Program-made: the position numbers and the translations under genes | From: Skeletonema tropicum | Lineage: Eukaryota; Bacillariophyta; Thalassiosirophyceae; Thalassiosirales; Thalassiosiraceae | Length of the DNA stretch: 64,000 bases | Direction of reading: 5' to 3' | Assembly (NCBI GenBank): GCA_037178625.1 | Contig: CM074137.1 | Span: 1,860,001 to 1,924,000 of the forward strand | Part shown: positions 23,781 through 64,000 of the stretch, piece by piece | How the letters are laid out: each line of letters begins with the position of its first letter | How positions within the stretch are numbered: the first letter of the stretch is position 1 | The notes under the pieces: model-generated | The model's input: only the letters and a program-made list of their open reading frames with translations | Databases searched by the model: none | Told to the model about the DNA's origin: nothing

Positions 23781-23857
23781 ATGACGACGACGACGAATGA
23801 CCACATAGAGGTACTCTCGCCGCCTCAATGCACCATCAGCCGATATGCAATTCCTTG
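23572..23857 (+). repeat. CCCH promoter/5'-end block, copy 1 (in place)
   Basis: This 286-bp block runs from TGGCACAAAG to ATTCCTTG and covers ~209 bp of promoter plus the first ~25 codons of the CCCH gene. It is repeated with about half a dozen differences at 27056-27340 and 50677-50961. Here it continues straight into the gene body; in the other two places it is cut off at the same base by the TIR element. Confidence 0.93.
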
Positions 23858-25001
23858 TGGAGTATGCCAGTCAAACATAAACATCGGCGAACGAATGTTT
23901 TGTTTTACTACAACCACAAAAAAAACGGATGAAAAGGAGGCGAAGGACAACGAGAAGAAATCAATATCTTGGGGACACGAAACATGCTACAACAATAATC
24001 TTCCTCGTCCACCAACCTGTCGACATTGGATGAGATTAGGACGCTGCCCATCTCTCCAAGCGGGTCTGTGTGCCTTCAGTCACGATGAAGATGCAAGAGG
24101 CTCCGCTGCAACCAACTTGGATAAAAAACGATACGGAGGTCGACGGAATTACATTCGCAATCAACACAAGAATAGTGTACTTCGAATATTTCTCATGCAA
24201 ACATATGGATTAGAATATCTTCATCGACAAGATGGAGTTATCATCGATGCAGCTGGCGGAAAAGGTGAACTAGCTTGGGAACTTATCAATCTTAGTGGAG
24301 TAAAAGACTGTGTAGTTGTCGATCCAAGGCAATTGAATCTCAGCTTAGTTCAAACCAAATGGAAGAAGGGCTTGTTTGAGCCAAAGCGTACAGGGCCAGT
24401 GTTTTCCAAGTGGTATCCAGCTTGCGAGGATGGATGTAAAATGCGACAATCGATAAGTCCAAGACACATTCGATGTTTTTTGGATGGAGAAGCTTGTTTG
24501 GATTTCATGAATGCAGAGAGCGAAGAAGACATTGATCGGGCTAATGAGTGGTATCAAAATCAGCTCATTAGAGCAAAGGAGATTTCGTGGACAAGCAAAG
24601 GGTTGACGCAGCATGAAGATGGGACATCTTACAATGAAGAGGAGGAAGTTACAAATAATAATGAGACAGTATCGCTCGAGGCAATAGAAACTACCGAGTC
24701 TGAAATTAGTAGTGCTCAAGAGGCACGAAGGTTACTCCAGAGATCTCATCTCATCGTTGGCTTGCACTGTGATCAAGCAGCAGGAGAGATAGTCGATTTT
24801 GCTATAGCCAAAAAAATCCCTTGGTGTGTGGTGCCCTGTTGTACCTATTCGGAAATGTTCTCTTGCCGAAGACTTAGTAATGGAACTCGAGTGACATCGT
24901 ACGATCACCTTGTACAATGGCTACAGGAAAGAGACCCGAGAGCAAAAGTGGCAACGTTGGATATGGAAGGGAAGAACAAAGTTATCTACACTCCTCCCTA
25001 A
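23781..25001 (+). CDS. CCCH zinc-finger, SAM-methyltransferase-like protein, intact copy
   Basis: 406 residues in one frame. An N-terminal Cys/His cluster (C26/C29, then WGHETC at 64-69) is followed by a C-X8-C-X7-C-X3-H zinc finger at 80-101 (CRHWMRLGRCPS...CAFSH). At about 154-184 there is a Rossmann-like start (IIDAAGGKGELAWEL, ending VVVDPR), typical of SAM binding. At about 326-356 comes GLHCDQAAGEIVDFA with VPCCTYSEMFSCR, a pattern of late-strand motifs in Cys-containing RNA methyltransferase-like folds. An RNA-modifying role is inferred; the substrate is unknown. The 3' end overlaps the convergent START gene by 81 bp of coding sequence. This is the only CCCH copy in the window with promoter, start and stop together; the downstream copy at 47478 lost its 5' end and is frameshifted. 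Confidence 0.82.
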   Translation: MTTTTNDHIEVLSPPQCTISRYAIPCGVCQSNINIGERMFCFTTTTKKTDEKEAKDNEKKSISWGHETCYNNNLPRPPTCRHWMRLGRCPSLQAGLCAFSHDEDARGSAATNLDKKRYGGRRNYIRNQHKNSVLRIFLMQTYGLEYLHRQDGVIIDAAGGKGELAWELINLSGVKDCVVVDPRQLNLSLVQTKWKKGLFEPKRTGPVFSKWYPACEDGCKMRQSISPRHIRCFLDGEACLDFMNAESEEDIDRANEWYQNQLIRAKEISWTSKGLTQHEDGTSYNEEEEVTNNNETVSLEAIETTESEISSAQEARRLLQRSHLIVGLHCDQAAGEIVDFAIAKKIPWCVVPCCTYSEMFSCRRLSNGTRVTSYDHLVQWLQERDPRAKVATLDMEGKNKVIYTPP

Positions 25002-25694
25002 GAGGTTCTTACGTAGATTGCCAAAGAAGTCATCTGCACCATAGAAAGCAATTCTATGCATGAGAAACTTTGGCACAGGCAAAGATATGCTTGTCAGTGT
25101 TGTCAATTCAGTCTTTTCCGTACCTGCAATAGATCGAAGGGAGCTGATAGAGAAGCATGAGTTTCCAACAGTATCGTTGAGCTCCTTTTTGACCGAACGA
25201 GATACAATCACAAAGCCTGCACTGTCGTCAGGTAGTGGTCTTGAATGAGTCAAAGACAAAGTCTCCACCTTTCCTCCAACGATTGGTATTTGCATGACAT
25301 GTTCGACAATCTTGGCTTCTACACCACTCAATGGGTGAAACTCGCATAAATCTTTCTTTCCAAGCGAACACTTGTTGTATTCTTGGACTCTTGCGCAATC
25401 TAACAATAGACTATTGATCTGCTTTGGAGTCATGTTGATAATTCCTCTAGTTTTCAGCATTGGAGTATTGTCTACTTGAGTTGTCCACTTGAGTACTTGT
25501 TCTTCAAGTAATTGCATCCATTGAACATTATCTTCGTATGAGGTTGATGCATTTTGTCGGAGGAGTTTATTGGTCGTATCATCGGGATGCCATTTTATGC
25601 TTACGTTGTTGTCATCCAAGAGATCAAGAGAATGTTGAATTAAAGCATCCAACACAGCCTGGACACTAGCAAAATGTTGGCTAATATGGACCAT
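24921..25694 (-). CDS. START-domain-like lipid-binding protein, copy X
   Basis: The frame opens at 25727; I prefer the ATG at 25694 (MVHISQHFASV), giving 257 residues. The body follows the START (StAR-related lipid transfer) fold pattern: TRGIINMTPKQINSLLLDC, then EYNKC, a VEHVMQIPIV-GGK strand, LSLTHSRPL, and GFVIVSRSV. Such domains bind a lipid or other hydrophobic ligand in the cytosol. No targeting signal is seen. Stop at 24921 lies inside the coding end of the convergent CCCH gene, so the two share 81 bp on opposite strands. The copy at 48542-49315 differs by about one base in this region. Confidence 0.68.
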   Translation of the reverse strand: MVHISQHFASVQAVLDALIQHSLDLLDDNNVSIKWHPDDTTNKLLRQNASTSYEDNVQWMQLLEEQVLKWTTQVDNTPMLKTRGIINMTPKQINSLLLDCARVQEYNKCSLGKKDLCEFHPLSGVEAKIVEHVMQIPIVGGKVETLSLTHSRPLPDDSAGFVIVSRSVKKELNDTVGNSCFSISSLRSIAGTEKTELTTLTSISLPVPKFLMHRIAFYGADDFFGNLRKNLLGRSVDNFVLPFHIQRCHFCSRVSFL

Positions 25695-27055
25695 TTTACG
25701 CACTTTTTGCAAAAAGATGCAACTCAAAATTCAACTTATCGTGTAGTGAAATACTCGAAGCCCTTTCATCGTGACATCACCATCATATCACCGAACACAC
25801 AAGCAAGATGATGATGACGCTTCTGCGCCGACGAGAGGCAACAAACAAGTGGGAAGTGCTGGACGAATAATAAAAGATTATCTCCTCTCTCAAGTCTCTC
25901 CTACGGATCAAATTCTGAACACAGCACTCTCGTGTAACCACCGTATTTATTCAAATAATGCACAGACATCACTTTTTGTGTGCTGGCACCACAACTCTCA
26001 CGTCGACTGCTGCTACACCCTAGACGATTGGCATGCAATCGAACCAAAATACACGGAGAACATGTGTAATGTTGCCGACAATATGGTACTTTTTGAAACG
26101 CCGTCGATCTCGAATAAACACTCAACACGTGATGATGCTTTTTGACGTCGCTCGACATCAACCATATAAGATACGTTGGGTGAAGCTACCGTCTCTTCTC
26201 GCAGTATATTTATTCATATAATAGTTCATACTGATCTGCTCCGAAACAGGATGGTTTTTTGTGGGCGTTGGTGGCTGCGTCGTTCGCGTATGCATGTTGC
26301 TTTGTCGCTAATGAAAGAGAGCACATCTCCGTCCAAAATCTGTCCACACACAACAATCAGCATGTAATATGAACAACATCGGCAATGGCACATAGAGAAA
26401 ACTCTATTTCAGCCGGCTTGAGGCTCTGTGTCAGCAGAGAAGGTTGTGTAGTGTAATATGAATGTATACATTGCAAGCATTTCTGATGCACAAGTTTAGA
26501 AAAGAAGGTGCAAGCAGATGAGGAATTAGTTGGCCATGAAAGCCTCAATCCTGAACCAGAGAGTGCAAGCAGGTATAGGAAGAGTAGGAATACTTAATGC
26601 ATTAGATTATTATTGCTGTTCTTGGCAGTACTTGCTCATTCGTCATCACTTATGTCTAGAGGCACGTGAGAACGGCGGCATGCAGGATCTTCTAGCGTAT
26701 TTAGTCTACGTAGGAACTAGTATTTTCGAGTTGAATATTCAACTCAAAAAATTCAACTCAAAATTCAACTCGTCGCTGGGCGAAAAGCTCGAAATTAGTG
26801 CGTGAAAAGGTGCTTTTTGGACCTTCTTGAAAACATTTTGGACGAAATTCAATTCGTATACAGGGAGAGCTACGTGGGATCCCAGTACGGTCAAGGCGTG
26901 CAACTCGAGTTGAATTTCGGGGTGAATACCCCCATTTAGACGACTTTGCCACCAGATCAGAACCCTCAATATCGGGGGGCTCCCCCCTCGCCCCCTATAT
27001 CCAAAGGCCTACACGGCCTTCAGCACCAGCCACCATACCATACCATACCATACCG
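25695..27055. other. Intergenic, no supported gene; palindromes and CCATA microsatellite
   Basis: No convincing gene in ~1.36 kb. An 18-bp perfect palindrome (GAGTTGAATATTCAACTC) lies at 26728-26745, with more ATTCAACTC copies just after and a CAACTCGAGTTG palindrome at 26901-26912; a related ACTCAAAATTCAACTT also sits at 25724-25739. A short CCATA tandem tract at about 27033-27054 precedes the duplicated promoter. An open frame at 25771-26145 lacks protein-like features. The matching stretch in copy Y is 49316-50676. Confidence 0.55.
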
Positions 27056-27340
27056 TGGCACAAAGTTAGCACTAATCACCCCACGGTGTGTCAACTACGC
27101 CAAACCTATCGAGGACGGTGAAGGATACAACGGTAATTCATTATCAACCCCACAAAACAACACAGCAAGCAAAGCAATGAAAACAACTTCTATCTAATGT
27201 TGTCTTCGTCCATTACCAATAGTTGCTGATGGTACATAAATAAAACATCAGAGACACGCACTGATGACGACGACGACGAATGACCACATAGAGGCACTCT
27301 CGCCGCCTCAATGCACCATCAGCCGATATGAAATTCCTTG
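27056..27340 (+). pseudogene. Orphan CCCH promoter and first 25 codons, cut by the TIR element
   Basis: This 285-bp block repeats 23572-23857. It keeps the promoter and the start of the CCCH frame (ATG at 27264), then stops at ATTCCTTG, where the TIR element begins with GGAGCGATC. The first base of the element and last base of this block overlap. The sequence that should follow (TGTGGAGTATGCC) is found 20.1 kb away at 47478. So a second CCCH gene appears to have been split here. If transcribed, it would drive into the element. Confidence 0.9.
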
Positions 27341-29142
27341 GAGCGATCTCACGATCAGCTGACGGGCGCGCTTCAATTTCATCTTTTCTCAAAATGAAGA
27401 ATTTTCGCACGAGACCTTTAAAATTTAATATTTAACTAGAGGGACTACTAGCTAAATGGGACCCCTGCGACACCAACGCCGTGCCCACCCGCTCGAGTAA
27501 CCATGGGCCAAACATGATGCTACTACCCCACACGAACAACTTTGGCCCCATGGTGACTCGAGCGGGTGGAATCGGGAGTGTGTAATCGTCATTCTAGTAC
27601 GTGTCCGCCCGCAGCAGTGTCGTCGTGAGCATATCATGTGTTGTATGTCTGCATGGCTTCTGCGTCTTCAACACAATTGCCGAAGATAGATGGAGCCATG
27701 CGCGTTTTTCTCCCTTAAGGATGGGCATTGCTCTTATTTTGTTGGAATAGGAAAGCAATAGGACGGATATGTTCTTCTCTTATGGACACTCCTGCGACAT
27801 CAACGCCGTGGCCGGCCGCTCGAGTCACCATAGGCCAAACAAGATGCTACTACCCCACACGAACAACTTTGGCTTTGGCCCCATGGTGACTCGAGCGGCT
27901 ACAATTGGGAGTGTGTAATCGTCATCTCATTAGTCCGATATCTGCAGTGGATTCTGTGTCTTCAATCGAATTGGTATTATTGACAAAACGAATTGAAAAG
28001 TCCAAGTCGAAATCGAAAATTGCACAATAAACAGCACCACCTTTCGAAGTGTTGATCAACAATGAAGCTAATCAACTTTTGCTCGACATGGTTAGACGAA
28101 GAGACGTATAGGGAACATGCAGAACTTTTTACGCAATAAAAAGAGTTGGGGGCAGAAACAAAATAAGAAGAAGTGCCCTATCGCAAAGCACAACAAGAGC
28201 GGCAGCAACAAAAAATCATGTTTTTCCCCATATTATTACAATCTCGACTGTACAGAACACGGTGGTTATTTGATTAAGTAGACTGGCATGTAGAAATGAG
28301 GCACGGCCGGTTGGCTCAACGACGAAGTAATTAATGCAATCAATATGCACTTTCTTCGACAAAAGCTTGATGGCAATTCTTTCTTTTACGCCTCCCAGTT
28401 CATGGGCAAGCTCCTCCAGACTGATCCTCACGGCACGAATCAACTGAACTACAATTATTCAATGATAAAAGGGTGATCGAAGAAGATAAAGAAAGGTCTC
28501 TTCAAAATCGAAAATCTTTACATCGCAATCAATCACAAAAACACCCACTGGCTTACAATGCGCATCAACTTGATTGCAAGGAATATATCTCTTTGGGACT
28601 CACAAGGCGAGAAGGAGGAGTGTACTGTACACCAATGCTGCACCTAGATATCTTGGGGATGAGTAGAAGAGGCGCATCCCGACAAGAACTTGATGGAGTG
28701 GTTAGATTCTTGGATAATTGAAGGTTAGTTGGACGAAAGTCCTCAACAAGCGAATGACTTTGACTGCCACAGTTACTCTTCTCAAATGTTTGTCTGTTAG
28801 TCGAAGAAGGATCCATTACTTACGAAAGATTCATACTCACAAGCATCCATCTACACAAAGGAAGTGAGGAATGTATTCGCACACATTCTTTGGAATGCAA
28901 GTTCCAATCGCCCAGAGGTTTAGACTTGATGTTATAAGCGAGTCGTAGTCATATATTCACATTAATAGAATGAATTATTGCATAACGCGCATATATCATT
29001 CCTTTTACTCCGTGTAGGTCATCGAGATTGGGCCCGGAAATTTTAAAATGCATTTTTTGAGCGAGAGAAAATCGAATGAATCGAAAAATCTGAAATTGAA
29101 GCGAGAACGCTCATCCGAGTCAGCTGATCTTGAGATCGCTCC
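27340..29142 (+). mobile_element. TIR element (Mutator-like?) carrying a decayed Ulp1 protease, copy X
   Basis: The ends are inverted repeats of ~90-110 bp. The left starts GGAGCGATCTCACGATCAGC and the right, read on the minus strand, starts GGAGCGATCTCAAGATCAGC. Both continue with GCTTCAATTTCA, TTTTCTC blocks and TTTAAAATTT. Inside are two ~140-bp direct repeats (27458-27593 and 27784-27925), each with inverted arms around CTCGAG, and a frameshifted Ulp1/C48 protease on the plus strand. Long TIRs with a captured Ulp1 gene are typical of Mutator-like elements, but no MULE transposase is seen, so it would be non-autonomous. No matching 9-bp target duplication is found, because the flanks are different genes: CCCH 5' block on the left, ABCC fragment on the right. 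Confidence 0.82.
28309..28800 (+). pseudogene. Ulp1/SENP (peptidase C48) remnant, copy X
   Basis: Three pieces in different frames together show the C48 signature. At 28309 the frame reads GWLNDEVINAINMHFLRQ, the substrate-binding start of the domain. At 28513 it reads LYIAINHKNTHWL with the catalytic His-Trp (28546-28551), then LWDSQGE with the catalytic Asp (28597-28599). At 28741 it reads PQQANDFDC with the catalytic Cys codon at 28765-28767, ending MFVC and a stop at 28798. The usual DCG is DCH here and the V-F-V stretch is altered. Stops and frame changes separate the parts, so it cannot make an active deSUMOylase. A related frame upstream (28080-28200) is Glu/Arg/Gln-rich like the N-terminal helix of such proteins. 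Confidence 0.8.
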
Positions 29143-29972
29143 GAGGGAACAATCTCACTTGATGGCGTTGATTTGAGCACACTAGGTCTATCAGACGTAC
29201 GTGGCCGACGGAATGGCATGTTTATTCTTCCATAAGATCCTGCCGTTTTTTCGGGCACAATACGCAGCAATCTTGATCCGTTTCTTGTGCACAGTGATGA
29301 AGAACTGATTTCTGTCCGTGAACTGATACGGGCGTTGGAGCTGATCAAATTTCCGCAAACCTCATTGAATGAACGAAGCTGTGGAGGAGGGTGGCGTCAA
29401 CTTCAGTGCTGGCGAAAAACAACTTTTGTGTCTAGCTCGTGCGATGTTGGCCAACCCTCGTTTGCTTGTTTTAGACGAAGCTACGTCCTCGTGCGACCGT
29501 GAGACGGATTCGTCAGTGCAGCAGATGCTCCGGAGTCAATTTCCCGACACTACGTTGCTGACAATTGAAATTGCCCATCGGCTTGACACAATCATTGATT
29601 ATGATGTAGTTATTGTCATGGAGAATGGAAGAGTAGCGGAGATGGGCTCTCCACGAGATCTGTTGAGTTCGTGTGGTATCTTCACTAACATGGACAACGC
29701 TACAGGGCCAGACTCAGCAGAAGTCGATAGGCTTAGACAAGGACGCTCACGAGAAGGAAACCGAGGAAGACGCAGCTAAGGAGGAAATGAAGAAATTGTT
29801 CGCCGACTTGTGTTCTCATCTAGACGCATTGTCCAATTACCACTTTGCTGCCCGCCTTGTTGCCGATGAGGCCAATGTACAGAACCGTGAGGATGTACCC
29901 GCGATCGCTATGGAAGAGGTTCTACCAATGCACATGAGCAAGAGTAGAGGAGTGGCACCAGAAGAAGTATAG
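29143..29972 (+). pseudogene. Mpp10::ABCC chimera, copy 1, 3' part only
   Basis: Only the part after the ABCC breakpoint is present, since the TIR element lies to the left. ABCC sequence runs to about 29730, from ISLDGVDLSTLGL through the ABC signature (FSAGEKQLLCLARAML), Walker B (LLVLDEATSS) and H-loop (EIAHRLDTI). Mpp10 sequence follows in another frame from about 29733 (DKDAHEKE, MKKLFADL, LDALSNYHF, PAIAMEEV) to a stop at 29970. There is a TAA at the Q-loop Gln (LP*DP) and a frame change before the signature. Confidence 0.85.
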
Positions 29973-30151
29973 CTGACCGGCGAGCGATAAATCCAATTTG
30001 TAGCAGCTTTAGGATAGTTATAGATCTAAGTGTGGTAATGCTAGTATATAGAGGTCACTCACTCACTATTTTTATATTCTTTAACACCATCTACACATCT
30101 AACATTTTGACCAATCGACACCCCTACTTACCCACCTAACACCACTTTCAC

Positions 30152-32405
30152 TTACATTCCATTCGTACGAACCGATTTCCTTGTTGATCTCCTTTGCAAA
30201 GGAACACTACTTGTCGAGGACCTCGTGACGGCAGGGGTGCTCTTGTCTGTCTTCTTTGCAGCCGCCGGTTCCTTTGCAGTCACAGGCTTCTTTGCGGCAG
30301 AATGCCTGGGTGGAATCGGGGGGTACTCATTGGAACATTTAAACACAACTTGTTAGAATGCCACACCATTTCCCTGATTCTTTCGAAAGGCACTCAAAAT
30401 AATCGCGAACGGGGAGGGACCCGTGAAGCGCCAAGAACAAAAACGAATACTCAAGAATCCAGGGTTGTTCACATTCGTTCGAATTCTTTTTAAGTGTAGA
30501 AATCGAAAATTATTGCGGGACTCCATTTACTTAGGGGGGGAGGCAACCTTCCAAAACTCTTGCTCCTTTCCATCACTTTCATGTTCGTTCGATTGATAAG
30601 ATCGCCACTCGCACCCAATGATACTCGCACTTTCGAGTTCAATCGTTCGTGGTTCATCGTTTGACTCAATCGAAAGCTACCATGTCCATGGCCACGGCCG
30701 TCAGTCGATGAAGCGGAGAAGATTGCCGTGTGAATCGTTTTGCTTCAATTTTAATCAAATGTATCATTAGCCTCCTAGAATTTGACGACATAGCATGCAC
30801 ATTAAGATTTTGGCCGTGCTTTTGGAGCTCGAAACGCAATGTCAAAATATTATACAATCATTGGAGGAACGGAAGTCTATCGAACTGATGATCACATGCC
30901 AATGCCTCGTGGAATAAATTAGAAACTGAAGGCAGGCGAAATCCAGCTTGCCCGACAGGAAGAGAGTCTGCAGGACCTCGTTGAGAGGAAGACGTGCCAG
31001 AGCTGAAGAGATTGCTCGAATAGCTCAAGAGAAAGAGGAACGGAATGCTCGCCTTGCTCAGAGGATGAGAATGATCACCGAGAGGAAGTGGAAAGTGATA
31101 GAAAGGTTCAAGAAGAGGATGATTTGATACTGAAGCAATTATTAGTCTTACTCTTACAGCTTCCGAGTCTTACTAACTGCGAAGATTGCAGCACTTTTAG
31201 CACTATCGTACAATTCATTATCAAATCATGAGAAAGAAGATTGATCGAATGAGGCAATGCTCCACGCACAGCTATGATCCTTGCTCCCAGGCACAATGCG
31301 AAGAAAGGTTTTAGTAGCTTTTAACAGCTAGCAGCATTTAATGAGTATTGAGACAAATCTGCCGCCGACCCCATCGCCTGCATCTTGCAGGCATGGGGTC
31401 GGCTTTCGAAACTCAAAATCTAAGATACCTGTGACTTCCTAGGTTGCCACTCATTTCGCTGGCGTGCATGCGTCTATCTATCTGCTTTATCTCTTCTCAA
31501 CACTATTTACTCTCTAAATAGCACCGGCGCACGGTGCACAATAGTGCCGAATGTTCATACTAATAATCGCCCTCCAAACTTACGCAGTGAAGTTTTGGGA
31601 GAGCCAGAGATACTGTGACTTCCGAGGTTGATGCACCTATGTATCTGCTTGAACTTCTCTCTATTCTACAGCGCACGGTGCATCCTAGTTTCTTCTTCCT
31701 CCCGGGGGTCAAAAATTCTTCCATCTTGGATTTCATTTCGTTCACCTCGTCCATCTGGGATTCCATTTCGTTCACCTTGTTTCGGGGCTGCTGGATTTCG
31801 ACGGTATCTTCAGCCCGACTCTGCTGAAGTTGACGTATGTCGCCTTCTAGGCGCTTGTGACCCTCTATGCGCTCCTCACGCTCCTGGATTAATGCCGTAG
31901 TAACTCGATCAATATTGTTACTTCCAATCTTCATGGCCGTAACAAGTTGAGCAATGTCTTCTTTGTTTTGAGTCGAGGCTGGAGTTGCCAAACCACCGAA
32001 CACGAACAGATTGATCGGATTGAGCTGTTCGGTGCTGGAGTGGGTTTGGGACTGCATGGAAGGAGTGGCAGCCGTAGCAAATGCAACAGAAGGCGGCACA
32101 CCACCAGCACTAGGAGCATGAGGTGTGGCGTGCGACCAGAACCCAGCATGAAAATGATGTGGAAAGTTGAACCCGGAAGAGAAGTCATGATTGAATCCAT
32201 GCTGCTGCAGCTGCAAATCATGAGCACGATCAGTACCTTCAACGTCTTTCTGCCAATAGTCCTTGTTTCTATTCATCATTTTCTTGAATAGCCGCCTTTT
32301 ATCATTTCGTTTGGATGGGCTCATTTCTTCATCAAGATCAACTTCGTTAGAGAATTTACCAGTCTTTATGGCGAAATCTTTTGCAGAGCGATCGTACATC
32401 TTCAC
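30152..32405 (-). pseudogene. Coiled-coil/basic protein gene, copy 1, split by a 1.3-kb insertion
   Basis: Compared with the intact-looking copies at 37150 and 42822, this frame is cut after GRKKK by an insertion at 30355-31687. The 5' part reads through into inserted DNA and stops at 31560 (281 codons). The last ~64 codons (FKCSNEYPPIPPRH to the Lys/Arg-rich end) are stranded at 30152-30346. The same split occurs in the Y copy, so the insertion predates the outer duplication. Confidence 0.8.
30355..31687 (+). mobile_element. 1,333-bp insertion with GTT flanks, copy X
   Basis: Comparison with inner unit b defines both edges: GTT at 30352-30354 and again at 31688-31690, single in the empty site. 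The ends are weakly inverted (TAGAATGC at the left, TAGGATGC read inward from the right). Inside, a Lys/Arg/Glu-rich coiled-coil-like frame (about 30995-31126) is broken by stops, and a strong hairpin lies at 31365-31402 with arms CCGACCCCAT/ATGGGGTCGG and GCCTGCA/TGCAGGC. No transposase is visible. A 3-bp target duplication is an inference from one empty site. Confidence 0.7.
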
Positions 32406-33214
32406 ATACTTCTCCTCCTTCGTCGTTCAAACTCTTCGTCATTAGGATGTGCCTTGACATAGTCACCCACTAGTTTATCCATGCGACGCGACAGGTCCGA
32501 CCTTGGCATGGTGCTTTGTGTTGGTTTGTTAATCAATTGCTCTTGCCAATTTATGATGAAGTGACGAGATTGAGAAGTTCGTTGAGATCATGAGAAAGAT
32601 GGTACGGACAATCTATTTTGACTTGACTCGCTTTCTTGTATTTTTCAACATTCCACGAGTTCCTACGTAGAAAAGAAGATTGAGATACTTCTCCTCCTTC
32701 GTTGTCAAGCCCTCAAACTCTTCGTCATTAGGATGTGCCTTGACATATGTAGTCACCCACTAGTTTATCCATGCGACGCGACAGGTCCGACCTTGGCATG
32801 GTGCTTTGTGTTGGTTTGTTAATCAAAGCTCGGAAGGAATACCGTGATGTGAGGCAAAGATTCTTGTCCGAAAAAAGTGTCGACTGTAGGAATTGGTTTG
32901 GCTCTGTCATTCATCTGATCAGAGTGTGCAATCATAGGATTCTTCTTCTTGCGAGAAGAAGGCAGTTCTGATAGAGATTGGCAATTTAGTCCCCGTCCGT
33001 TTTTCAGGCGAGCGAGTGTCAAAAGTGCACTCTGACTACACAAGTAGTTTGAGAAGAAGCAGATTGAGGAAAAAATACGTGCGAGGCGAATTTGCTTTTG
33101 ATGCCGAAATGTAGATAATGTGAATGAGTAATAAGCAGAAATAAGTGTTTATTGTATGTATTTGTTTTACAAGAAGTTTTATCTATCGCTCATTGCCTTT
33201 GAATTTAATTCTTA

Positions 33215-34014
33215 TCACGACCACAGCGTCTGTTCTTCTTTCTGTACTTTCTGTTCTACGGCAAGTCTCATGAATGCTGTAATTGCAGCACATGACTGCT
33301 TTGAGCTTTCTATACTCGACAATAAGCCATCAAGCGACAGGGGTGCCCCGTAGTTGAAACTTGTTATTATATTTGCATCATCTTGCTCTGCGTTCAGTTC
33401 CACTTGGTCCATATCATTTGATATTGATGTTACTGAGCTAGAGAAGTAGATTGTTTGGGTATTTTGGATGCATCGACTACGATGACTACCATTCTATGTC
33501 CCTCTCCAGATTACTCTTCCACCGTTGGATCTAGCCATATTGTCACGTCCGTATCATCACTAGCACTAGCATCTATATCCATATCTTCTGCTTTTGACGA
33601 CGGGGATATATTGTTGATCGCTATACATGTAGCAGCTACTGCTAAGCCTCTCATTGCGATCCCTGCATCCATCAGAGCCATAACTGCACAATTCACAGCC
33701 GTGCCTAAGACGCTACCGTGCGTCAGCTTGCACGATTTGAATAACAACCTGAATAACACATCTAGGGTAGCGTTCCAACATGATGCAAGAAGACAACGCA
33801 TCTCGTAAAAAATATTCTAACTCACGCTCTGTACTGTGGCACCACCTCCAGATGGCAGGGGCACCGAGAGAGATGTCATCGCATTCGTACTTTTTTTAGC
33901 GACATCGTCTTTCGCATCTCCGTCTTGAACCACACCAGCCGAAGACGAATTGCCTCCACCACCCGCAGCAGCATTTGACATCATCACGAGCCCCTTGGAA
34001 AAAGCCACACTCAC
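33215..34014 (-). pseudogene. RNase PH-type exosome subunit remnant (Rrp46/EXOSC5-like), copy 1
   Basis: The minus-strand frame 33801-33511 has GSVLGTAVNCAVMALMDAG and IAMRGLAVAATC, the core helix and strand of RNase PH-fold exosome subunits, then TIWLDPTVEE as in Rrp46/EXOSC5. A TAA stop interrupts it; reading on in the same frame gives SGEGHRMVVIVVD, clearly the same domain. A C-terminal helix (NYGAPLSLDGLLSSIESS, ITAFMRLAVEQK) lies in another frame at 33412-33215. An upstream Gly/Ser-rich frame (34014-33817) may be an exon of the same or another gene. The N-terminal half of the domain is missing. It cannot give a working exosome subunit. Confidence 0.72.
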
Positions 34015-34437
34015 AATACCTCTATCATAGCGTTCTCTATTTGAAATCCTATTCTCATCTCATCGCAGATTGAAGCAGTCAGATAGCTGCTGCTGCTGCT
34101 ATCTACAAAATAAAGCGATCAACCAAGCCGTCCACATCATCACAGCCAAGAAGCATCTCTCAGCAGTGCAGTCGAACATTCCTTAACCCACCCCTGCATC
34201 GGTACTCCTTGCTTTGTGACTCCTTTTGACTTCCGACCGTAACTGCGTCATACTAGGCCGATTCTTTTCGTTCAAAGACCAATATAAGTAACTCTCGATT
34301 TAGTTAGTTTTGAACGAGTATGCAACGTATTACTTATGACAGATTATGACGTTATTCCGACCACTATGGCGGATATGTTGACATCGCCATGTAAGTATGT
34401 GGCGAGCGAGGGGGCGGCGGGGCCGCTCGCTCCGGGG

Positions 34438-52764: not shown

Positions 52765-53594
52765 GAGGGAACAATCTCACTTGATGGCGTTGATTTGAGC
52801 ACACTAGGTCTATCAGACGTACGTGGCCGACGGAATGGCATGTTTATTCTTCCATAAGATCCTGCCGTTTTTTCGGGCACAATACGCAGCAATCTTGATC
52901 CGTTTCTTGTGCACAGTGATGAAGAACTGATTTCTGTCCGTGAACTGATACGGGCGTTGGAGCTGATCAAATTTCCGCAAACCTCATTGAATGAACGAAG
53001 CTGTGGAGGAGGGTGGCGTCAACTTCAGTGCTGGCGAAAAACAACTTTTGTGTCTAGCTCGTGCGATGTTGGCCAACCCTCGTTTGCTTGTTTTAGACGA
53101 AGCTACGTCCTCGTGCGACCGTGAGACGGATTCGTCAGTGCAGCAGATGCTCCGGAGTCAATTTCCCGACACTACGTTGCTGACAATTGAAATTGCCCAT
53201 CGGCTTGACACAATCATTGATTATGATGTAGTTATTGTCATGGAGAATGGAAGAGTAGCGGAGATGGGCTCTCCACGAGATCTGTTGAGTTCGTGTGGTA
53301 TCTTCACTAACATGGACAACGCTACAGGGCCAGACTCAGCAGAAGTCGATAGGCTTAGACAAGGACGCTCACGAGAAGGAAACCGAGGAAGACGCAGCTA
53401 AGGAGGAAATGAAGAAATTGTTCGCCGACTTGTGTTCTCATCTAGACGCATTGTCCAATTACCACTTTGCTGCCCGCCTTGTTGCCGATGAGGCCAATGT
53501 ACAGAACCGTGAGGATGTACCCGCGATCGCTATGGAAGAGGTTCTACCAATGCACATGAGCAAGAGTAGAGGAGTGGCACCAGAAGAAGTATAG
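52765..53594 (+). pseudogene. Mpp10::ABCC chimera, copy 5, 3' part only
   Basis: Equivalent of copy 1, beginning at the ABCC breakpoint right after the TIR element. The ABCC signature, Walker B and H-loop are present; the Mpp10 3' end is at 53355-53594. It shares the a-type base (TTTGTGTC in place of TTTATGTC) with copy 1. Confidence 0.85.
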
Positions 53595-53773
53595 CTGACC
53601 GGCGAGCGATAAATCCAATTTGTAGCAGCTTTAGGATAGTTATAGATCTAAGTGTGGTAATGCTAGTATATAGAGGTCACTCACTCACTATTTTTATATT
53701 CTTTAACACCATCTACACATCTAACATTTTGACCAATCGACACCCCTACTTACCCACCTAACACCACTTTCAC

Positions 53774-56027
53774 TTACATTCCATTCGTACGAACCGATTT
53801 CCTTGTTGATCTCCTTTGCAAAGGAACACTACTTGTCGAGGACCTCGTGACGGCAGGGGTGCTCTTGTCTGTCTTCTTTGCAGCCGCCGGTTCCTTTGCA
53901 GTCACAGGCTTCTTTGCGGCAGAATGCCTGGGTGGAATCGGGGGGTACTCATTGGAACATTTAAACACAACTTGTTAGAATGCCACACCATTTCCCTGAT
54001 TCTTTCGAAAGGCACTCAAAATAATCGCGAACGGGGAGGGACGCGTGAAGCGCCAAGAACAAAAACGAATACTCAAGAATCCAGGGTTGTTCACATTCGT
54101 TCGAATTCTTTTTAAGTGTAGAAATCGAAAATTATTGCGGGACTCCATTTACTTAGGGGGGGAGGCAACCTTCCAAAACTCTTGCTCCTTTCCATCACTT
54201 TCATGTTCGTTCGATTGATAAGATCGCCACTCGCACCCAATGATACTCGCACTTTCGAGTTCAATCGTTCGTGGTTCATCGTTTGACTCAATCGAAAGCT
54301 ACCATGTCCATGGCCACGGCCGTCAGTCGATGAAGCGGAGAAGATTGCCGTGTGAATCGTTTTGCTTCAATTTTAATCAAATGTATCATTAGCCTCCTAG
54401 AATTTGACGACATAGCATGCACATTAAGATTTTGGCCGTGCTTTTGGAGCTCGAAACGCAATGTCAAAATATTATACAATCATTGGAGGAACGGAAGTCT
54501 ATCGAACTGATGATCACATGCCAATGCCTCGTGGAATAAATTAGAAACTGAAGGCAGGCGAAATCCAGCTTGCCCGACAGGAAGAGAGTCTGCAGGACCT
54601 CGTTGAGAGGAAGACGTGCCAGAGCTGAAGAGATTGCTCGAATAGCTCAAGAGAAAGAGGAACGGAATGCTCGCCTTGCTCAGAGGATGAGAATGATCAC
54701 CGAGAGGAAGTGGAAAGTGATAGAAAGGTTCAAGAAGAGGATGATTTGATACTGAAGCAATTATTAGTCTTACTCTTACAGCTTCCGAGTCTTACTAACT
54801 GCGAAGATTGCAGCACTTTTAGCACTATCGTACAATTCATTATCAAATCATGAGAAAGAAGATTGATCGAATGAGGCAATGCTCCACGCACAGCTATGAT
54901 CCTTGCTCCCAGGCACAATGCGAAGAAAGGTTTTAGTAGCTTTTAACAGCTAGCAGCATTTAATGAGTATTGAGACAAATCTGCCGCCGACCCCATCGCC
55001 TGCATCTTGCAGGCATGGGGTCGGCTTTCGAAACTCAAAATCTAAGATACCTGTGACTTCCTAGGTTGCCACTCATTTCGCTGGCGTGCATGCGTCTATC
55101 TATCTGCTTTATCTCTTCTCAACACTATTTACTCTCTAAATAGCACCGGCGCACGGTGCACAATAGTGCCGAATGTTCATACTAATAATCGCCCTCCAAA
55201 CTTACGCAGTGAAGTTTTGGGAGAGCCAGAGATACTGTGACTTCCGAGGTTGATGCACCTATGTATCTGCTTGAACTTCTCTCTATTCTACAGCGCACGG
55301 TGCATCCTAGTTTCTTCTTCCTCCCGGGGGTCAAAAATTCTTCCATCTTGGATTTCATTTCGTTCACCTCGTCCATCTGGGATTCCATTTCGTTCACCTT
55401 GTTTCGGGGCTGCTGGATTTCGACGGTATCTTCAGCCCGACTCTGCTGAAGTTGACGTATGTCGCCTTCTAGGCGCTTGTGACCCTCTATGCGCTCCTCA
55501 CGCTCCTGGATTAATGCCGTAGTAACTCGATCAATATTGTTACTTCCAATCTTCATGGCCGTAACAAGTTGAGCAATGTCTTCTTTGTTTTGAGTCGAGG
55601 CTGGAGTTGCCAAACCACCGAACACGAACAGATTGATCGGATTGAGCTGTTCGGTGCTGGAGTGGGTTTGGGACTGCATGGAAGGAGTGGCAGCCGTAGC
55701 AAATGCAACAGAAGGCGGCACACCACCAGCACTAGGAGCATGAGGTGTGGCGTGCGACCAGAACCCAGCATGAAAATGATGTGGAAAGTTGAACCCGGAA
55801 GAGAAGTCATGATTGAATCCATGCTGCTGCAGCTGCAAATCATGAGCACGATCAGTACCTTCAACGTCTTTCTGCCAATAGTCCTTGTTTCTATTCATCA
55901 TTTTCTTGAATAGCCGCCTTTTATCATTTCGTTTGGATGGGCTCATTTCTTCATCAAGATCAACTTCGTTAGAGAATTTACCAGTCTTTATGGCGAAATC
56001 TTTTGCAGAGCGATCGTACATCTTCAC
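53774..56027 (-). pseudogene. Coiled-coil/basic protein gene, copy 4, split by insertion
   Basis: Same split as copy 1: 5' part 56027-55182, stranded 3' part 53968-53774, insertion between. Confidence 0.8.
53977..55309 (+). mobile_element. 1,333-bp insertion with GTT flanks, copy Y
   Basis: Copy of 30355-31687 with at least one base change (GGGACGCG against GGGACCCG near 54042). The hairpin is at 54987-55024. Confidence 0.7.
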
Positions 56028-56836
56028 ATACTTCTCCTCCTTCGTCGTTCAAACTCTTCGTCATTAGGATGTGCCTTGACATAGTCACCCACTAGTTTAT
56101 CCATGCGACGCGACAGGTCCGACCTTGGCATGGTGCTTTGTGTTGGTTTGTTAATCAATTGCTCTTGCCAATTTATGATGAAGTGACGAGATTGAGAAGT
56201 TCGTTGAGATCATGAGAAAGATGGTACGGACAATCTATTTTGACTTGACTCGCTTTCTTGTATTTTTCAACATTCCACGAGTTCCTACGTAGAAAAGAAG
56301 ATTGAGATACTTCTCCTCCTTCGTTGTCAAGCCCTCAAACTCTTCGTCATTAGGATGTGCCTTGACATATGTAGTCACCCACTAGTTTATCCATGCGACG
56401 CGACAGGTCCGACCTTGGCATGGTGCTTTGTGTTGGTTTGTTAATCAAAGCTCGGAAGGAATACCGTGATGTGAGGCAAAGATTCTTGTCCGAAAAAAGT
56501 GTCGACTGTAGGAATTGGTTTGGCTCTGTCATTCATCTGATCAGAGTGTGCAATCATAGGATTCTTCTTCTTGCGAGAAGAAGGCAGTTCTGATAGAGAT
56601 TGGCAATTTAGTCCCCGTCCGTTTTTCAGGCGAGCGAGTGTCAAAAGTGCACTCTGACTACACAAGTAGTTTGAGAAGAAGCAGATTGAGGAAAAAATAC
56701 GTGCGAGGCGAATTTGCTTTTGATGCCGAAATGTAGATAATGTGAATGAGTAATAAGCAGAAATAAGTGTTTATTGTATGTATTTGTTTTACAAGAAGTT
56801 TTATCTATCGCTCATTGCCTTTGAATTTAATTCTTA

Positions 56837-57636
56837 TCACGACCACAGCGTCTGTTCTTCTTTCTGTACTTTCTGTTCTACGGCAAGTCTCATGAATGCT
56901 GTAATTGCAGCACATGACTGCTTTGAGCTTTCTATACTCGACAATAAGCCATCAAGCGACAGGGGTGCCCCGTAGTTGAAACTTGTTATTATATTTGCAT
57001 CATCTTGCTCTGCGTTCAGTTCCACTTGGTCCATATCATTTGATATTGATGTTACTGAGCTAGAGAAGTAGATTGTTTGGGTATTTTGGATGCATCGACT
57101 ACGATGACTACCATTCTATGTCCCTCTCCAGATTACTCTTCCACCGTTGGATCTAGCCATATTGTCACGTCCGTATCATCACTAGCACTAGCATCTATAT
57201 CCATATCTTCTGCTTTTGACGACGGGGATATATTGTTGATCGCTATACATGTAGCAGCTACTGCTAAGCCTCTCATTGCGATCCCTGCATCCATCAGAGC
57301 CATAACTGCACAATTCACAGCCGTGCCTAAGACGCTACCGTGCGTCAGCTTGCACGATTTGAATAACAACCTGAATAACACATCTAGGGTAGCGTTCCAA
57401 CATGATGCAAGAAGACAACGCATCTCGTAAAAAATATTCTAACTCACGCTCTGTACTGTGGCACCACCTCCAGATGGCAGGGGCACCGAGAGAGATGTCA
57501 TCGCATTCGTACTTTTTTTAGCGACATCGTCTTTCGCATCTCCGTCTTGAACCACACCAGCCGAAGACGAATTGCCTCCACCACCCGCAGCAGCATTTGA
57601 CATCATCACGAGCCCCTTGGAAAAAGCCACACTCAC
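56837..57636 (-). pseudogene. Exosome RNase PH-type remnant, copy 4
   Basis: Core frame 57423-57133, C-terminal helix frame 57034-56837, upstream frame 57636-57439. Same internal TAA. Confidence 0.72.
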
Positions 57637-57962
57637 AATACCTCTATCATAGCGTTCTCTATTTGAAATCCTATTCTCATCTCATCGCAGATTGAAGCAG
57701 TCAGATAGCTGCTGCTGCTGCTATCTACAAAATAAAGCGATCAACCAAGCCGTCCACATCATCACAGCCAAGAAGCATCTCTCAGCAGTGCAGTCGAACA
57801 TTCCTTAACCCACCCCTGCATCGGTACTCCTTGCTTTGTGACTCCTTTTGACTTCCGACCGTAACTGCGTCATACTAGGCCGATTCTTTTCGTTCAAAGA
57901 CCAATATAAGTAACTCTCGATTTAGTTAGTTTTGAACGAGTATGCAACGTATTACTTATGAC

Positions 57963-59615
57963 TGGGTTCCCTCCTGGCCAAAACCACTAATTAGTGGTCA
58001 TACGTAGGGGGTAGTTAGAGGACATTCTAACACCTCCCAAACCCTAACATTCAAGGAATACACCACCAAAGACCTCTACAACAGAGTCCAAGCCCAAAAA
58101 TCCGCAATGAAAACGCCCAAATAGAAGTAGAGATAGCTATATACACACCATAAAATCGCTATTTTAGTGACCACTAATTAGTGGTCGAGAATTATGTGTT
58201 GTTGTGTAATTGTTTATGCTTCCCCCAACAAACAGTGCACATGGGAACCTTCTTATGATATGTGGAGTAGGTTTTGACCTCTATGCGGCATGTGGCACGC
58301 CTATCCTTGATGTACTGTGTGCCAACCTTCTGCCGACATTTTGTAAAATCTGGCTTGAATTCAAGCACGGGCTTGACCGTCTAGCTCGCCTGTTGGGGCG
58401 AATAGGAGAGCAGGAAGCTTTCCTGCACTGCATATGATGTTGTTCTAACATTTACTTGGCTGATTGACGACGAAAATCACGTTGGGGTGGAGAATTCTCA
58501 ACTCTAGTATGCGATATCTTGACACGAGAAGGGCGCAAATTAACGCAAATTCTGCTGAAATGAGGTGTAGGCGCAGGTTTAGCGGAGATAACAGCCAATC
58601 AAAGGATATCGTCGTGTACATTAATGTCGTTGTGGTCGCTGTGCAAGAGATCACCATCGGATTTGCATTACTTATTGGCCAAACATACATCATAGAGTGG
58701 TGATTTGGTGCTGATGGATGCCAATTTTTTTTTGGAAAAAATGCGCTACACCACAACCTGGCATCACCTGCAGCCGCCCTGTCATTAATTTGGACCATTC
58801 CACCAACAATATTCCTATAATTAATATCATATGATGCTGTCTTTGTTTTTATTCCATTTAAAGCGGTTGATTTGTCGAATAATTATTGAATATTGCCATT
58901 ATATTTGTGTCGATAAATCGTCATCATCGCATCCCCGTCGCTTCAATTCATGTGAGATGCTAACCAAAACGAACTCTCTTGGGTAGATGGGCCGCTTTCC
59001 ATGTCCCCATCTGTAGATAGGTTGGCCGCTTTGGGTAGGGATCGTTGTTTTCGAGTAGAATACCGTCGTATGTCGACTGCAAATAACTTTGCATGGTGGT
59101 TGGGACATCATCCGGTTGCCGGTGAAGTTTGTGCATGATTGTTGTAGGATCCAGGCCATCTCGATGCTCTTCTTCGACCACCTGGTTAGCCACTCATATT
59201 GTGACTGTTGTGGTATGCTTTCTGATGGGTAAAAGCATCTACTAAATGCAGATACGACGGCTCGTATGCTGGGCCTCTTTCGCCATGGTGATGGTGTGAT
59301 GAAATGTGAGTTCTACGGGTGGCAACATTTTTGATATCAATTCCTACGTACCCCCAAGTTGAAGTTGCAAAACTTCCGAAAAAAACTCGTCGGCTGTTCG
59401 CCAAATTTGTCAGTAGGCTAGTGTTTGAACGTTAATAGGTTGGGCCCTCTCCAGGGAACACGTGAGATAATAGGTGTACGCCTTGTCAAGACATTGAAGA
59501 GGGTGCCACCTGAATTTGATAACGTTTGAGTGATTATAAGGGGGTCGTAGGAGATCGTAAACTGACTACTAATTAGTGGTTTTTCCGCTAATTAGTGGCC
59601 CCAGGAGGGAACCCA
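57963..59615 (+). mobile_element. Non-autonomous TIR transposon, 1,653 bp, inserted only in copy Y
   Basis: Both ends carry the perfect 15-bp inverted repeat TGGGTTCCCTCCTGG. The flanks are TGAC at 57959-57962 and 59616-59619, and the empty sites in units a, b and c have a single TGAC, giving a 4-bp target duplication (or ATGAC with 14-bp repeats). Subterminal CCACTAATTAGTGG palindromes occur near both ends (57985-57998 and 59566-59600) and once inside (58171-58184). Inside, three minus-strand frames (58798-58445, 59193-58960, 59404-59186) and one plus-strand frame (58210-58437) show no transposase motif. They may be decayed captured sequence. Superfamily not assigned. Confidence 0.88.
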
Positions 59616-59716
59616 TGACAGATTATGACGTTATTCCGACCACTATGGCGGATATGTTGACATCGCCATGTAAGTATGTGGCGAGCGAGGGGGCGGCGGG
59701 GCCGCTCGCTCCGGGG

Positions 59717-59772
59717 GTGAGTACCGGGTTTCGAAACCCGGTACTCACCGAATACCGGGTTTCGAAACCCGG
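59717..59772. repeat. Tandem perfect palindromes, unit a'
   Basis: Fourth copy of the block: a 32-bp palindrome at 59717-59748 and an 18-bp palindrome at 59755-59772, about 100 bp right of the new transposon. Confidence 0.95.
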
Positions 59773-60118
59773 CACTCACCCTTTCGACAGCCAGGCTTTG
59801 ACCCACTCATCCTTTATATATGTACTTAGACTTCTTATCGCCCCTACTTTCACGACGAAGATGGAACCAACGATACGAATGGCACGACATGATCCCAATG
59901 GACAAATGACTGTGAGATCGGGCGGTGATTTGACGTTTTGATCTCGCTAGATGCCATTTTAAATGAAAATTGGCCAATTAACTAGGCGTTTGTTAGTGTA
60001 GCCGGTACATGAGTATGTGAAATGGTGCACTCTAATTATTGAGGTGCTATGATGACGCCCTGTCACCTCCTGTCACCATACTTTGAGTATTAGACAATAT
60101 GTATTAGAATTTTCAGTA

Positions 60119-62249
60119 ATGGAAGCATTCGCTGACGAAGAAGAGGAGTTTTTGCCACCAGATCATGTTGCCTATGGACAGGAGTTACCGGAAGACGATA
60201 ATAATGAAAAAGTGCTGCCTCATGTGTGAGAGATAAAGCAGGCAAAGAATCTGATGATGATAACGAAGGCTTTGATGATGAATTTGAAGATGAAGACGAA
60301 GATCTTATGAAGCGATTTGAACCCAACTCAGTCCGTCGTAGGAAATATGTGCCGATGCATGAGGAGGTAGATGTCTTGTATCAGCTGTACGATGATGACG
60401 ACGGTAACAATAGCGATGGTGAAGATCCCGAAGAAATGACTGCAGCTGACTTCTTTGGAAAGCCGGATACAAAACTTATCAAGAGGTACAAGGAACAACA
60501 GAAAGCTGGCAGCAAGGGTAAGAGCAGCAGCAAGAGCAAGTCAAACGACATGAAATTAGACGACGAAGATTCTTGGAATGATATCGATATTACAGAAGAT
60601 GGGTTGGATTGGAAGGATGGTGGCGAAGAAGAAGACGAGATGGAAAGCGACAGTGACGATGCCGAAGGAGGAGCTTCTGATGAAGACGATGGTGAAGATT
60701 CCGAGGGCGACATGGAAGAGGAGGAGGAAGAAGATGATGAACAAAACATGAAGCTATCGAGTCATGATATCAAATCAAAGAAGCTCGAGGAGCAAATACT
60801 TCGTCTTGAAGAAGACATGATGGCTGAGAAGCCATGGAGAATGCTTGGAGAAGCGAAAGGCACCAATCGCCCCTCCGACTCTTTGCTTGATTCCACTCCT
60901 GAATTCGAGGTTGCTTTCAAACCTCCCCCTATCATTACTGCTGGGCACACAGCTGACATTGAGGAGATAATCAAGAAGAGGATTATTGAAGAAGATTGGG
61001 ATAGATGACGTTGTTCCACGCGAGTTACCAGATATCGGCGCCAACAAATGAGGCGGAGATGTCTCGCCCGAAGTCAGTCAAGAGAAATCAAAGCTTGGAT
61101 TGGGTGAATTGTATGAGAGTGAATATCTTAAGAAGCGGAAGCGGCAATAACATCGATCGAACGAATGCACAGTCTTGAAATGCTGCCGCAGGAGAAAAGC
61201 ATGATCACATTGGTCGATTGCAGAGTTGACAAATCTTGGCCACAGAAAGGAGAGCTTGTCTTCGACAATGTTTCACTTCGGTATAGGCCCGGCTTGCCAT
61301 TATCTTTGGATGGGCTGTCGTTTAAGGTCAATCAAGGGGAACGTTGTGCAATCGTCGGCAGAACTGGCGCTGGGAAGTCTACTCTAACAACCGCCTTGTT
61401 CCGATTGGTTGAAGTTGACGAGGGAACAATCTCACTTGATGGCGTTGATTTGAGCACACTAGGTCTATCAGACGTACGTGGCCGACGGAATGGCATGTTT
61501 ATTCTTCCATAAGATCCTGCCGTTTTTTCGGGCACAATACGCAGCAATCTTGATCCGTTTCTTGTGCACAGTGATGAAGAACTGATTTCTGTCCGTGAAC
61601 TGATACGGGCGTTGGAGCTGATCAAATTTCCGCAAACCTCATTGAATGAACGAAGCTGTGGAGGAGGGTGGCGTCAACTTCAGTGCTGGCGAAAAACAAC
61701 TTTTATGTCTAGCTCGTGCGATGTTGGCCAACCCTCGTTTGCTTGTTTTAGACGAAGCTACGTCCTCGTGCGACCGTGAGACGGATTCGTCAGTGCAGCA
61801 GATGCTCCGGAGTCAATTTCCCGACACTACGTTGCTGACAATTGAAATTGCCCATCGGCTTGACACAATCATTGATTATGATGTAGTTATTGTCATGGAG
61901 AATGGAAGAGTAGCGGAGATGGGCTCTCCACGAGATCTGTTGAGTTCGTGTGGTATCTTCACTAACATGGACAACGCTACAGGGCCAGACTCAGCAGAAG
62001 TCGATAGGCTTAGACAAGGACGCTCACGAGAAGGAAACCGAGGAAGACGCAGCTAAGGAGGAAATGAAGAAATTGTTCGCCGACTTGTGTTCTCATCTAG
62101 ACGCATTGTCCAATTACCACTTTGCTGCCCGCCTTGTTGCCGATGAGGCCAATGTACAGAACCGTGAGGATGTACCCGCGATCGCTATGGAAGAGGTTCT
62201 ACCAATGCACATGAGCAAGAGTAGAGGAGTGGCACCAGAAGAAGTATAG
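60119..62249 (+). pseudogene. Mpp10::ABCC chimera, copy 6 (complete)
   Basis: Same structure and lesions as copies 2 and 3, spanning units a' and b'. The ABCC part is at about 61144-62007 and the Mpp10 3' end at 62010-62249. Confidence 0.85.
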
Positions 62250-64000
62250 CTGACCGGCGAGCGATAAATCCAATTTGTAGCAGCTTTAGGATAGTTATAG
62301 ATCTAAGTGTGGTAATGCTAGTATATAGAGGTCACTCACTCACTATTTTTATATTCTTTAACACCATCTACACATCTAACATTTTGACCAATCGACACCC
62401 CTACTTACCCACCTAACACCACTTTCACTTACATTCCATTCGTACGAACCGATTTCCTTGTTGATCTCCTTTGCAAAGGAACACTACTTGTCGAGGACCT
62501 CGTGACGGCAGGGGTGCTCTTGTCTGTCTTCTTTGCAGCCGCCGGTTCCTTTGCAGTCACAGGCTTCTTTGCGGCAGAATGCCTGGGTGGAATCGGGGGG
62601 TACTCATTGGAACATTTAAACACAACTTGTTTCTTCTTCCTCCCGGGGGTCAAAAATTCTTCCATCTTGGATTTCATTTCGTTCACCTCGTCCATCTGGG
62701 ATTCCATTTCGTTCACCTTGTTTCGGGGCTGCTGGATTTCGACGGTATCTTCAGCCCGACTCTGCTGAAGTTGACGTATGTCGCCTTCTAGGCGCTTGTG
62801 ACCCTCTATGCGCTCCTCACGCTCCTGGATTAATGCCGTAGTAACTCGATCAATATTGTTACTTCCAATCTTCATGGCCGTAACAAGTTGAGCAATGTCT
62901 TCTTTGTTTTGAGTCGAGGCTGGAGTTGCCAAACCACCGAACACGAACAGATTGATCGGATTGAGCTGTTCGGTGCTGGAGTGGGTTTGGGACTGCATGG
63001 AAGGAGTGGCAGCCGTAGCAAATGCAACAGAAGGCGGCACACCACCAGCACTAGGAGCATGAGGTGTGGCGTGCGACCAGAACCCAGCATGAAAATGATG
63101 TGGAAAGTTGAACCCGGAAGAGAAGTCATGATTGAATCCATGCTGCTGCAGCTGCAAATCATGAGCACGATCAGTACCTTCAACGTCTTTCTGCCAATAG
63201 TCCTTGTTTCTATTCATCATTTTCTTGAATAGCCGCCTTTTATCATTTCGTTTGGATGGGCTCATTTCTTCATCAAGATCAACTTCGTTAGAGAATTTAC
63301 CAGTCTTTATGGCGAAATCTTTTGCAGAGCGATCGTACATCTTCACATACTTCTCCTCCTTCGTCGTTCAAACTCTTCGTCATTAGGATGTGCCTTGACA
63401 TAGTCACCCACTAGTTTATCCATGCGACGCGACAGGTCCGACCTTGGCATGGTGCTTTGTGTTGGTTTGTTAATCAATTGCTCTTGCCAATTTATGATGA
63501 AGTGACGAGATTGAGAAGTTCGTTGAGATCATGAGAAAGATGGTACGGACAATCTATTTTGACTTGACTCGCTTTCTTGTATTTTTCAACATTCCACGAG
63601 TTCCTACGTAGAAAAGAAGATTGAGATACTTCTCCTCCTTCGTTGTCAAGCCCTCAAACTCTTCGTCATTAGGATGTGCCTTGACATATGTAGTCACCCA
63701 CTAGTTTATCCATGCGACGCGACAGGTCCGACCTTGGCATGGTGCTTTGTGTTGGTTTGTTAATCAAAGCTCGGAAGGAATACCGTGATGTGAGGCAAAG
63801 ATTCTTGTCCGAAAAAAGTGTCGACTGTAGGAATTGGTTTGGCTCTGTCATTCATCTGATCAGAGTGTGCAATCATAGGATTCTTCTTCTTGCGAGAAGA
63901 AGGCAGTTCTGATAGAGATTGGCAATTTAGTCCCCGTCCGTTTTTCAGGCGAGCGAGTGTCAAAAGTGCACTCTGACTACACAAGTAGTTTGAGAAGAAG
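61420..64000 (+). repeat. Inner unit b' of copy Y (cut by window edge)
   Basis: Equivalent of the first 2,581 bp of unit b. It covers the ABCC/Mpp10 3' part, the coiled-coil gene and the duplicated 5' block, then runs off the window. Confidence 0.95.
62429..63346 (-). CDS. Coiled-coil protein with basic C terminus, copy 5 (open frame, possibly 5'-broken)
   Basis: Same uninterrupted 305-codon frame as copies 2 and 3, with the same broken upstream start. The duplicated 5' block follows at 63347-63767. Confidence 0.5.
   Translation of the reverse strand: MKMYDRSAKDFAIKTGKFSNEVDLDEEMSPSKRNDKRRLFKKMMNRNKDYWQKDVEGTDRAHDLQLQQHGFNHDFSSGFNFPHHFHAGFWSHATPHAPSAGGVPPSVAFATAATPSMQSQTHSSTEQLNPINLFVFGGLATPASTQNKEDIAQLVTAMKIGSNNIDRVTTALIQEREERIEGHKRLEGDIRQLQQSRAEDTVEIQQPRNKVNEMESQMDEVNEMKSKMEEFLTPGRKKKQVVFKCSNEYPPIPPRHSAAKKPVTAKEPAAAKKTDKSTPAVTRSSTSSVPLQRRSTRKSVRTNGM

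Follow-up and report, generated by a model that had tools for sequence, protein, structure and literature searches.

The 64,000-nucleotide window of the Skeletonema tropicum assembly analysed here (C11:1860001-1924000) holds a nested tandem array: outer copies stand head-to-tail in direct orientation with a period of 23,622 bp, and within them runs an inner unit, U, with a period of 5,662 bp. We consider it probable that U entered one copy of a host gene, G2, from a circle, that an unequal crossover between G2 and its paralogue G1 then doubled the region, and that the right border, U|G2-H2-NDUFV1, was placed elsewhere in the assembly. According to passages of its description, the CNS00166 assembly was built with MECAT2 and 3D-DNA from PacBio CLR reads (N50 18.18 kb, longest read 215 kb), has a size of 78.78 Mb and a heterozygosity of 0.73% (PMC11032307). 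Our searches covered 78.4 Mb.

Both periods of the original prediction were recovered by self-comparison. In the assembled sequence 23,856-34,340 returns at 47,478-57,962 with 99.77% identity, which gives the outer period. The inner period is seen from 31,685 to 37,347 at an offset of 5,662 and from 37,347 to 43,019 at an offset of 5,672; the difference is the predicted 10-bp indel, an extra stretch in unit b alone among the five window-array units compared. Two larger indels are present in the units where they had been placed, with sizes that we correct. The one shared by units a and a', put at 1,333 bp, measures 1,330 bp and is accompanied by an imperfect duplication of 6 bp (CTTGTT/CTAGTT), and the one private to a', put at 1,653 bp, is 1,652 bp with inverted ends and a 5-bp duplication, ATGAC. 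Both are insertions with short duplications at their flanks.

The outer duplication had been thought to start at 23,856. Only an older paralogy begins there, and the recent duplication starts inside 24,669-24,761. Over 23,856-34,340 the outer copies differ by 22 substitutions, 20 of them left of this exchange point. Past it we count 2 substitutions among 15,829 aligned bases, besides small indels and the 1,652-bp insertion; set against the published heterozygosity of 0.73%, this bears out the recent amplification that had been proposed.

The first run, on the forward strand like all features below unless stated, is made of units a (29142..36139, with the 1,330-bp insertion at 30355-31684), b (36140..41811, 5,672 bp) and c (41812..47473, 5,662 bp). 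It closes with CGAG (47474..47477), the four bases with which U begins, and is thus three units plus 4 bp long. The second run begins with a' (52764..61418), which carries the 1,330-bp insertion at 53977-55306 and its private insertion at 57963-59614. Unit b' follows (61419..64000) and differs from b: the 10-bp stretch is missing, a 4-bp change resembles one on C3, and there are further changes. The second outer unit is incomplete, as b' and the array with it reach coordinate 65,782 (C11:1925782), 1.8 kb beyond the window end, and there meet a scaffold gap of 500 N. The junction between U and the adjoining element R2, searched as an exact 25-base match, has two occurrences in the whole assembly, both within the window; two outer units are therefore seen, and any more must lie in the gap.

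At its left the array abuts a gene pair, G1-H1 (23559..25666). Gene G (ORF 23781-25001) is intact here and encodes a Methyltransf_32 domain (PF13679); 58 homologous proteins were found, and the best-scoring named ones are from Skeletonema and match 100% of its length. The convergent gene H1 (24924 to about 25655, minus strand) is without its 5' part, so that the N-terminal part of H2 and its relatives is absent. Some 30-40 bp past the end of the H1 homology begins R1, a dispersed 1.23-kb repeat (25697..26929; second copy 49318-50550), which elsewhere is itself repeated head to tail, the periods being about 1,226 and 1,711 bp (C23:1477646-1485023, C3:84518-91354). Next comes the 5' end of G2 (27043..27340; second copy 50664-50961), 97% identical to 23559-23857 and cut at ..CCTTG by R2, a 1.8-kb element with inverted ends (GAGCGATCTCA...; 27341..29141; second copy 50962-52763).

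U starts at the last base of R2 with CGAG; after three units CGAG comes again, and G then resumes at TGTGG. Since CGAG stands at both ends of the three-unit run and G follows, the run sits in G2 beside R2. We read the ends of R2 in five copies outside the window: the target duplication is 4 bp at C23 (CGGG/CGGG) and matches at three of four bases at C13, and the copies at C11:2.29 Mb, C12 and C19, with no intact right end, are uninformative. In the window, the second copy of R2's own expected target (CTTG) is incomplete on the G side. The array interrupts one gene copy, and its copy number might vary between strains. The whole stretch 23,856-29,141 was also considered as a single transposon with a 4-bp target duplication. 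We rejected this candidate: an intact gene crosses its left edge, and it contains the second gene 5' end, R1 and R2.

The exchange itself is read from the gene copy at the inner junction (47478..49290), which we compared with G1 and with two G2-type copies (C58, C11:1.529 Mb). Its head (47478-48289) is G2-type and its tail (48383 onward) is G1-type. In G1 coordinates, all 21 head markers (23,924-24,668) and all 16 tail markers (24,762-25,632) follow this division, and the latter include a 77-bp segment present in the G2-type copies and absent from G1. One switch fits 37 of 37 diagnostic markers; one further site (25,149) is private to the mosaic copy. Columns from 25,655 on were left out, as homology to C58 and to the C11:1.529 Mb piece ends there. 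The marker type changes within a 93-bp interval (24669..24761; counterpart about 48,290-48,382), the likely place of the crossover. In the assembled sequence this copy is a single-switch mosaic, the hybrid expected of one unequal crossover between G1 and G2.

Non-allelic homologous recombination is expected to leave repeats in direct orientation, with a hybrid paralogue where the copies meet and pure parental types at both borders. The window shows direct repeats and such a hybrid. Unlike in a typical case, the paralogues here flank a pre-existing array, which makes the product nested, and the assembly gives no physical link to the right border. Unequal crossing-over is named the prevailing model for tandem direct duplication in the portion of a study that treats the subject (PMC3744419).

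The proposed course of events is as follows. A circular DNA cut open with a 4-base stagger would have brought U into G2. A misaligned pairing of G1 with G2, between sister or homologous chromosomes, would have followed, and a crossover in the 93-bp interval would have duplicated R1, the G2 5' end, R2 and the U run, creating the 23.6-kb outer period. The scaffold would have misplaced the true right border, U|G2-H2-NDUFV1, to elsewhere on C11 and C58. The succession of steps may be ordered as gene-fragment capture, unit insertion, tandem growth, unequal exchange and later transposon hits. All these mechanisms are known: the array clearly illustrates how large repeats arise through familiar processes, and does not stand for a new kind of element. 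Its value is that of a well-resolved case, in which the steps behind a nested tandem repeat can be ordered from sequence in an unusually readable form.

Several points weigh against this account. The outer unit is longer than the read N50 (23.6 kb against 18.18 kb), though the longest read reached 215 kb. The mosaic could also be assembler-made. The array runs out at a gap, and only logic ties the right border to it. Polishing with multi-mapping reads could reduce apparent divergence, and b' departs from b in the 10-bp stretch and the C3-like change.

Assembly error is the main rival, and one that we hold to be unlikely. It supposes one true outer unit: from G2 the assembler would have returned to G1, or entered the other haplotype, and read through the region a second time. 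CLR reads of this length and 3D-DNA scaffolding make such a path conceivable, as do the stop of the array at the 500-N gap and the second gap met by the C11:1.529 Mb piece 4 kb past its U units. Two right-border versions also stand adjacent and in opposite orientation in the scaffold, and C58 is exactly 50,000 bp long with mixed unit types. However, private changes of the second outer copy, among them the 1,652-bp insertion with its 5-bp duplication, tell against this. Two haplotypes differing by 0.73% would give more than 100 differences in 15.8 kb, where 2 substitutions were found, and the U|G2 junction is seen again at two further places. Private changes had been put forward as an argument against one stretch being pasted twice by an assembler. 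The argument holds against a simple pasted copy; it does not reach a wrong path through near-identical repeats.

The G1 x G2 crossover predicts a G2-type right border, and U|CGAG|G2_3' was found twice: from C58:46,204 onward (S) and from C11:1,529,358 downward (Q). The left border of the window array is G1-type, and scaffold gaps separate both G2-type borders from the array. In S, H2 keeps the N-terminal part that is common to the relatives P0062 and P0063 and that H1 lost. It is followed by a PF01512 gene, presumably NDUFV1, whose sole two matches in the genome lie in Q and S. With the 5' part of H2 intact and NDUFV1 next to it, L-G...H-NDUFV1 reads as the native order.

Judged on Q, C58 (exactly 50,000 bp) ends precisely where C11:1,541,407 begins. 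The two were therefore probably one contig originally, which was apparently cut at exactly 50,000 bases. Q and S lie side by side in opposite orientation and are 99-100% alike in the stretches compared; they would most simply be two haplotypes. Q is without 1,006 bp present in S, including the start of H2. We infer that Q and S represent the right border of the window array and that the scaffold order is wrong; chromosome 11 of S. tropicum as published would accordingly be mis-ordered around two gaps. Altogether, the assembly is unreliable here, with gaps, two adjacent right-border versions and a contig apparently split at 50,000 bases.

Some further features of these pieces were recorded. Across 9,399 bp of U and G2 (C58:38685-48083, C11:1527479-1536877) the two border versions agree at 100%, and two neighbouring stretches are about 99% identical. 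Q reaches its gap 4 kb past its U units through a repeat (C11:1536881-1540906) that ends exactly at these units. The first 1 kb of this repeat has at least 39 other matches of about 100% (40 scored of 52 candidates), and it is probably a very young family. C58 mixes C3-type and C11-type units: it may be chimeric, and U-mediated assembly chimeras may exist. A 3-kb probe from it (C58:10001-13000) is single-copy except for a dispersed repeat, and an ORF near the start of this unplaced sequence (C58:1-17207) is, by eye, presumably helicase-like.

The proposed entry of U from a circle draws on an insertion on C10. There a single U, carrying ACAT at either end and one extra AT, lies between bases 82-end and bases 1-85 of a transposon, T10. 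The order is permuted, and the content is that of a single U and a single T10, overlapping by 4 bp (CTAC); this description replaces that of a plain circular permutation of U alone. Homology of the left piece starts at T10 base 82 in the C9, C19, C6 and C7 copies and at base 81 on C21, and matches of the right piece mostly end at base 85, with three weaker ones (C40, C3, C2) ending at 90. Among the five T10 copies with both ends read (a sixth, with a damaged left end, was left out), four have exact 4-bp target duplications (TGAA, TGGT, CTGT, CGAA) and one matches at three of four bases; ACAT is accordingly read as T10's target in U.

This arrangement on C10 matches what would be left by a circle opened inside T10 and suggests a circular intermediate, and the run of three U plus CGAG on C11 fits the idea of a circle as well. 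A U::T10 array cut at exactly one period could have produced the permutation too, though only by a coincidence; the three weaker matches run to base 90, not 85. The outer junctions on C10 show no recognisable transposon end. In human segmental duplication through a circular intermediate, the order A-B becomes B-A with only short sequence identities at the breakpoints, as far as the relevant part of that report goes (PMC7450558). The changed order and short breakpoint identities on C10 are alike; the differences are that the host is a diatom, that the inserted DNA is a 5.7-kb array unit with one transposon, and that 4-bp duplications are present.

A broader reading, which we judge distinctly doubtful, makes U a repeatedly mobile circle. 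It would leave an array as extrachromosomal DNA, be opened with a 4-base stagger (CGAG on C11, CTAC on C10), be captured at or together with a transposon, and then grow in tandem. R2 would adjoin the capture on C11 and T10 would be carried on C10, both being families with 4-bp target duplications. That a transposase opened the circles is speculation; if true, DNA transposons in diatoms could seed large tandem repeats by way of transposases that act on circles as targets.

The outer duplication could likewise owe something to a circle, one carrying G-R1-G2_5'-R2-U^n and integrated into G1 by homologous recombination. The C10 insertion suggests that circles occur, and one exchange in G yields the same mosaic and the same end product. 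No sequence trace separating this path from a direct crossover was found. The extra step that it needs, excision of the circle, makes it rather improbable in our eyes. Alternative (reversed-ends) transposition by R2 is very hard to believe. In its favour, the array edge coincides exactly with an R2 end, and CGAG, duplicated over 4 bp, has the R2 target length seen at C23; at the U capture site a transposon end abuts inserted DNA with a target-length duplication, as in the tandem duplications described for maize Ac (PMC3744419). Against it, the outer exchange point is inside gene G, where, unlike in maize, no transposon end is seen. R2 may account for the capture of U, not for the outer duplication. 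The preferred explanation of the outer period is thus still the direct G1 x G2 crossover.

Near-identical tandem arrays of U are found at more than one place in the assembled sequence: C3 carries a second one, with about ten units within the 70 kb examined. Three blocks of U, represented by 19, 19 and 20 copies, were compared, a copy being kept if at least 97% of the block was covered at >97% identity, with gap columns ignored. Mean differences are 0.00-0.08% among copies inside the window array, and comparison of these with C3 copies gives 0.17-0.23%. The edges of the C3 array are more diverged, its first unit being 95.7% identical to the reference and later units about 98-99%, and C3:2195645-2197680 reaching 90-94%.

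U is a composite: a fragment of MPP10 that carries an inserted 866-bp fragment of an ABC transporter. The MPP10 fragment (40601..41401; further copies 34929-35729, 46263-47063 and 60208-61008) spans profile positions 148-369 of 529, and PF04006 is matched at E 6.9e-34 on the copy at 34929-35729, which is identical to 40601-41401; array copies differ at few sites. A parent-like uninterrupted frame of 907 aa lies at C14:1383212, among 31 matches listed. The ABC-transporter nucleotide-binding fragment (41525..42390, PF00005) is set within MPP10-derived sequence with a 5-bp AGAAG duplication, its edges being CTTAAGAAG|CGGAAG... and ...CTCAGC|AGAAGTCG. Its insertion site is uninterrupted at both C14 loci read, and a donor-like stretch is present on C42 (95 and 89% identity). 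A minus-strand ORF of 305 aa has three homologous proteins, none with a precomputed Pfam domain.

A natural unit boundary near U position 3,908-3,930 was considered and dropped: the breaks there are separate insertions (the 1,652-bp element and one of 3,808 bp on C3) and the C10 junction. Nothing marks the array as a ribosomal or other structural-RNA repeat: no RNA family matched at gathering score in the 64,000 bases of the window, and ARAGORN, run with the bacterial code, found no tRNA or tmRNA gene in it. None of the papers listed in our literature searches appeared to treat this array.

Two further repeats were noted. On C14 an inverted pair of MPP10/U-like fragments extends over about 26 kb (C14:1490107-1515997), and the member that was partly read is without the ABC insertion. 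Finally, four U units of the window contain a 31-bp tandem pair with the palindrome GGGTTTCGAAACCC, at 34443-34501, 40115-40173, 45777-45835 and 59722-59780.
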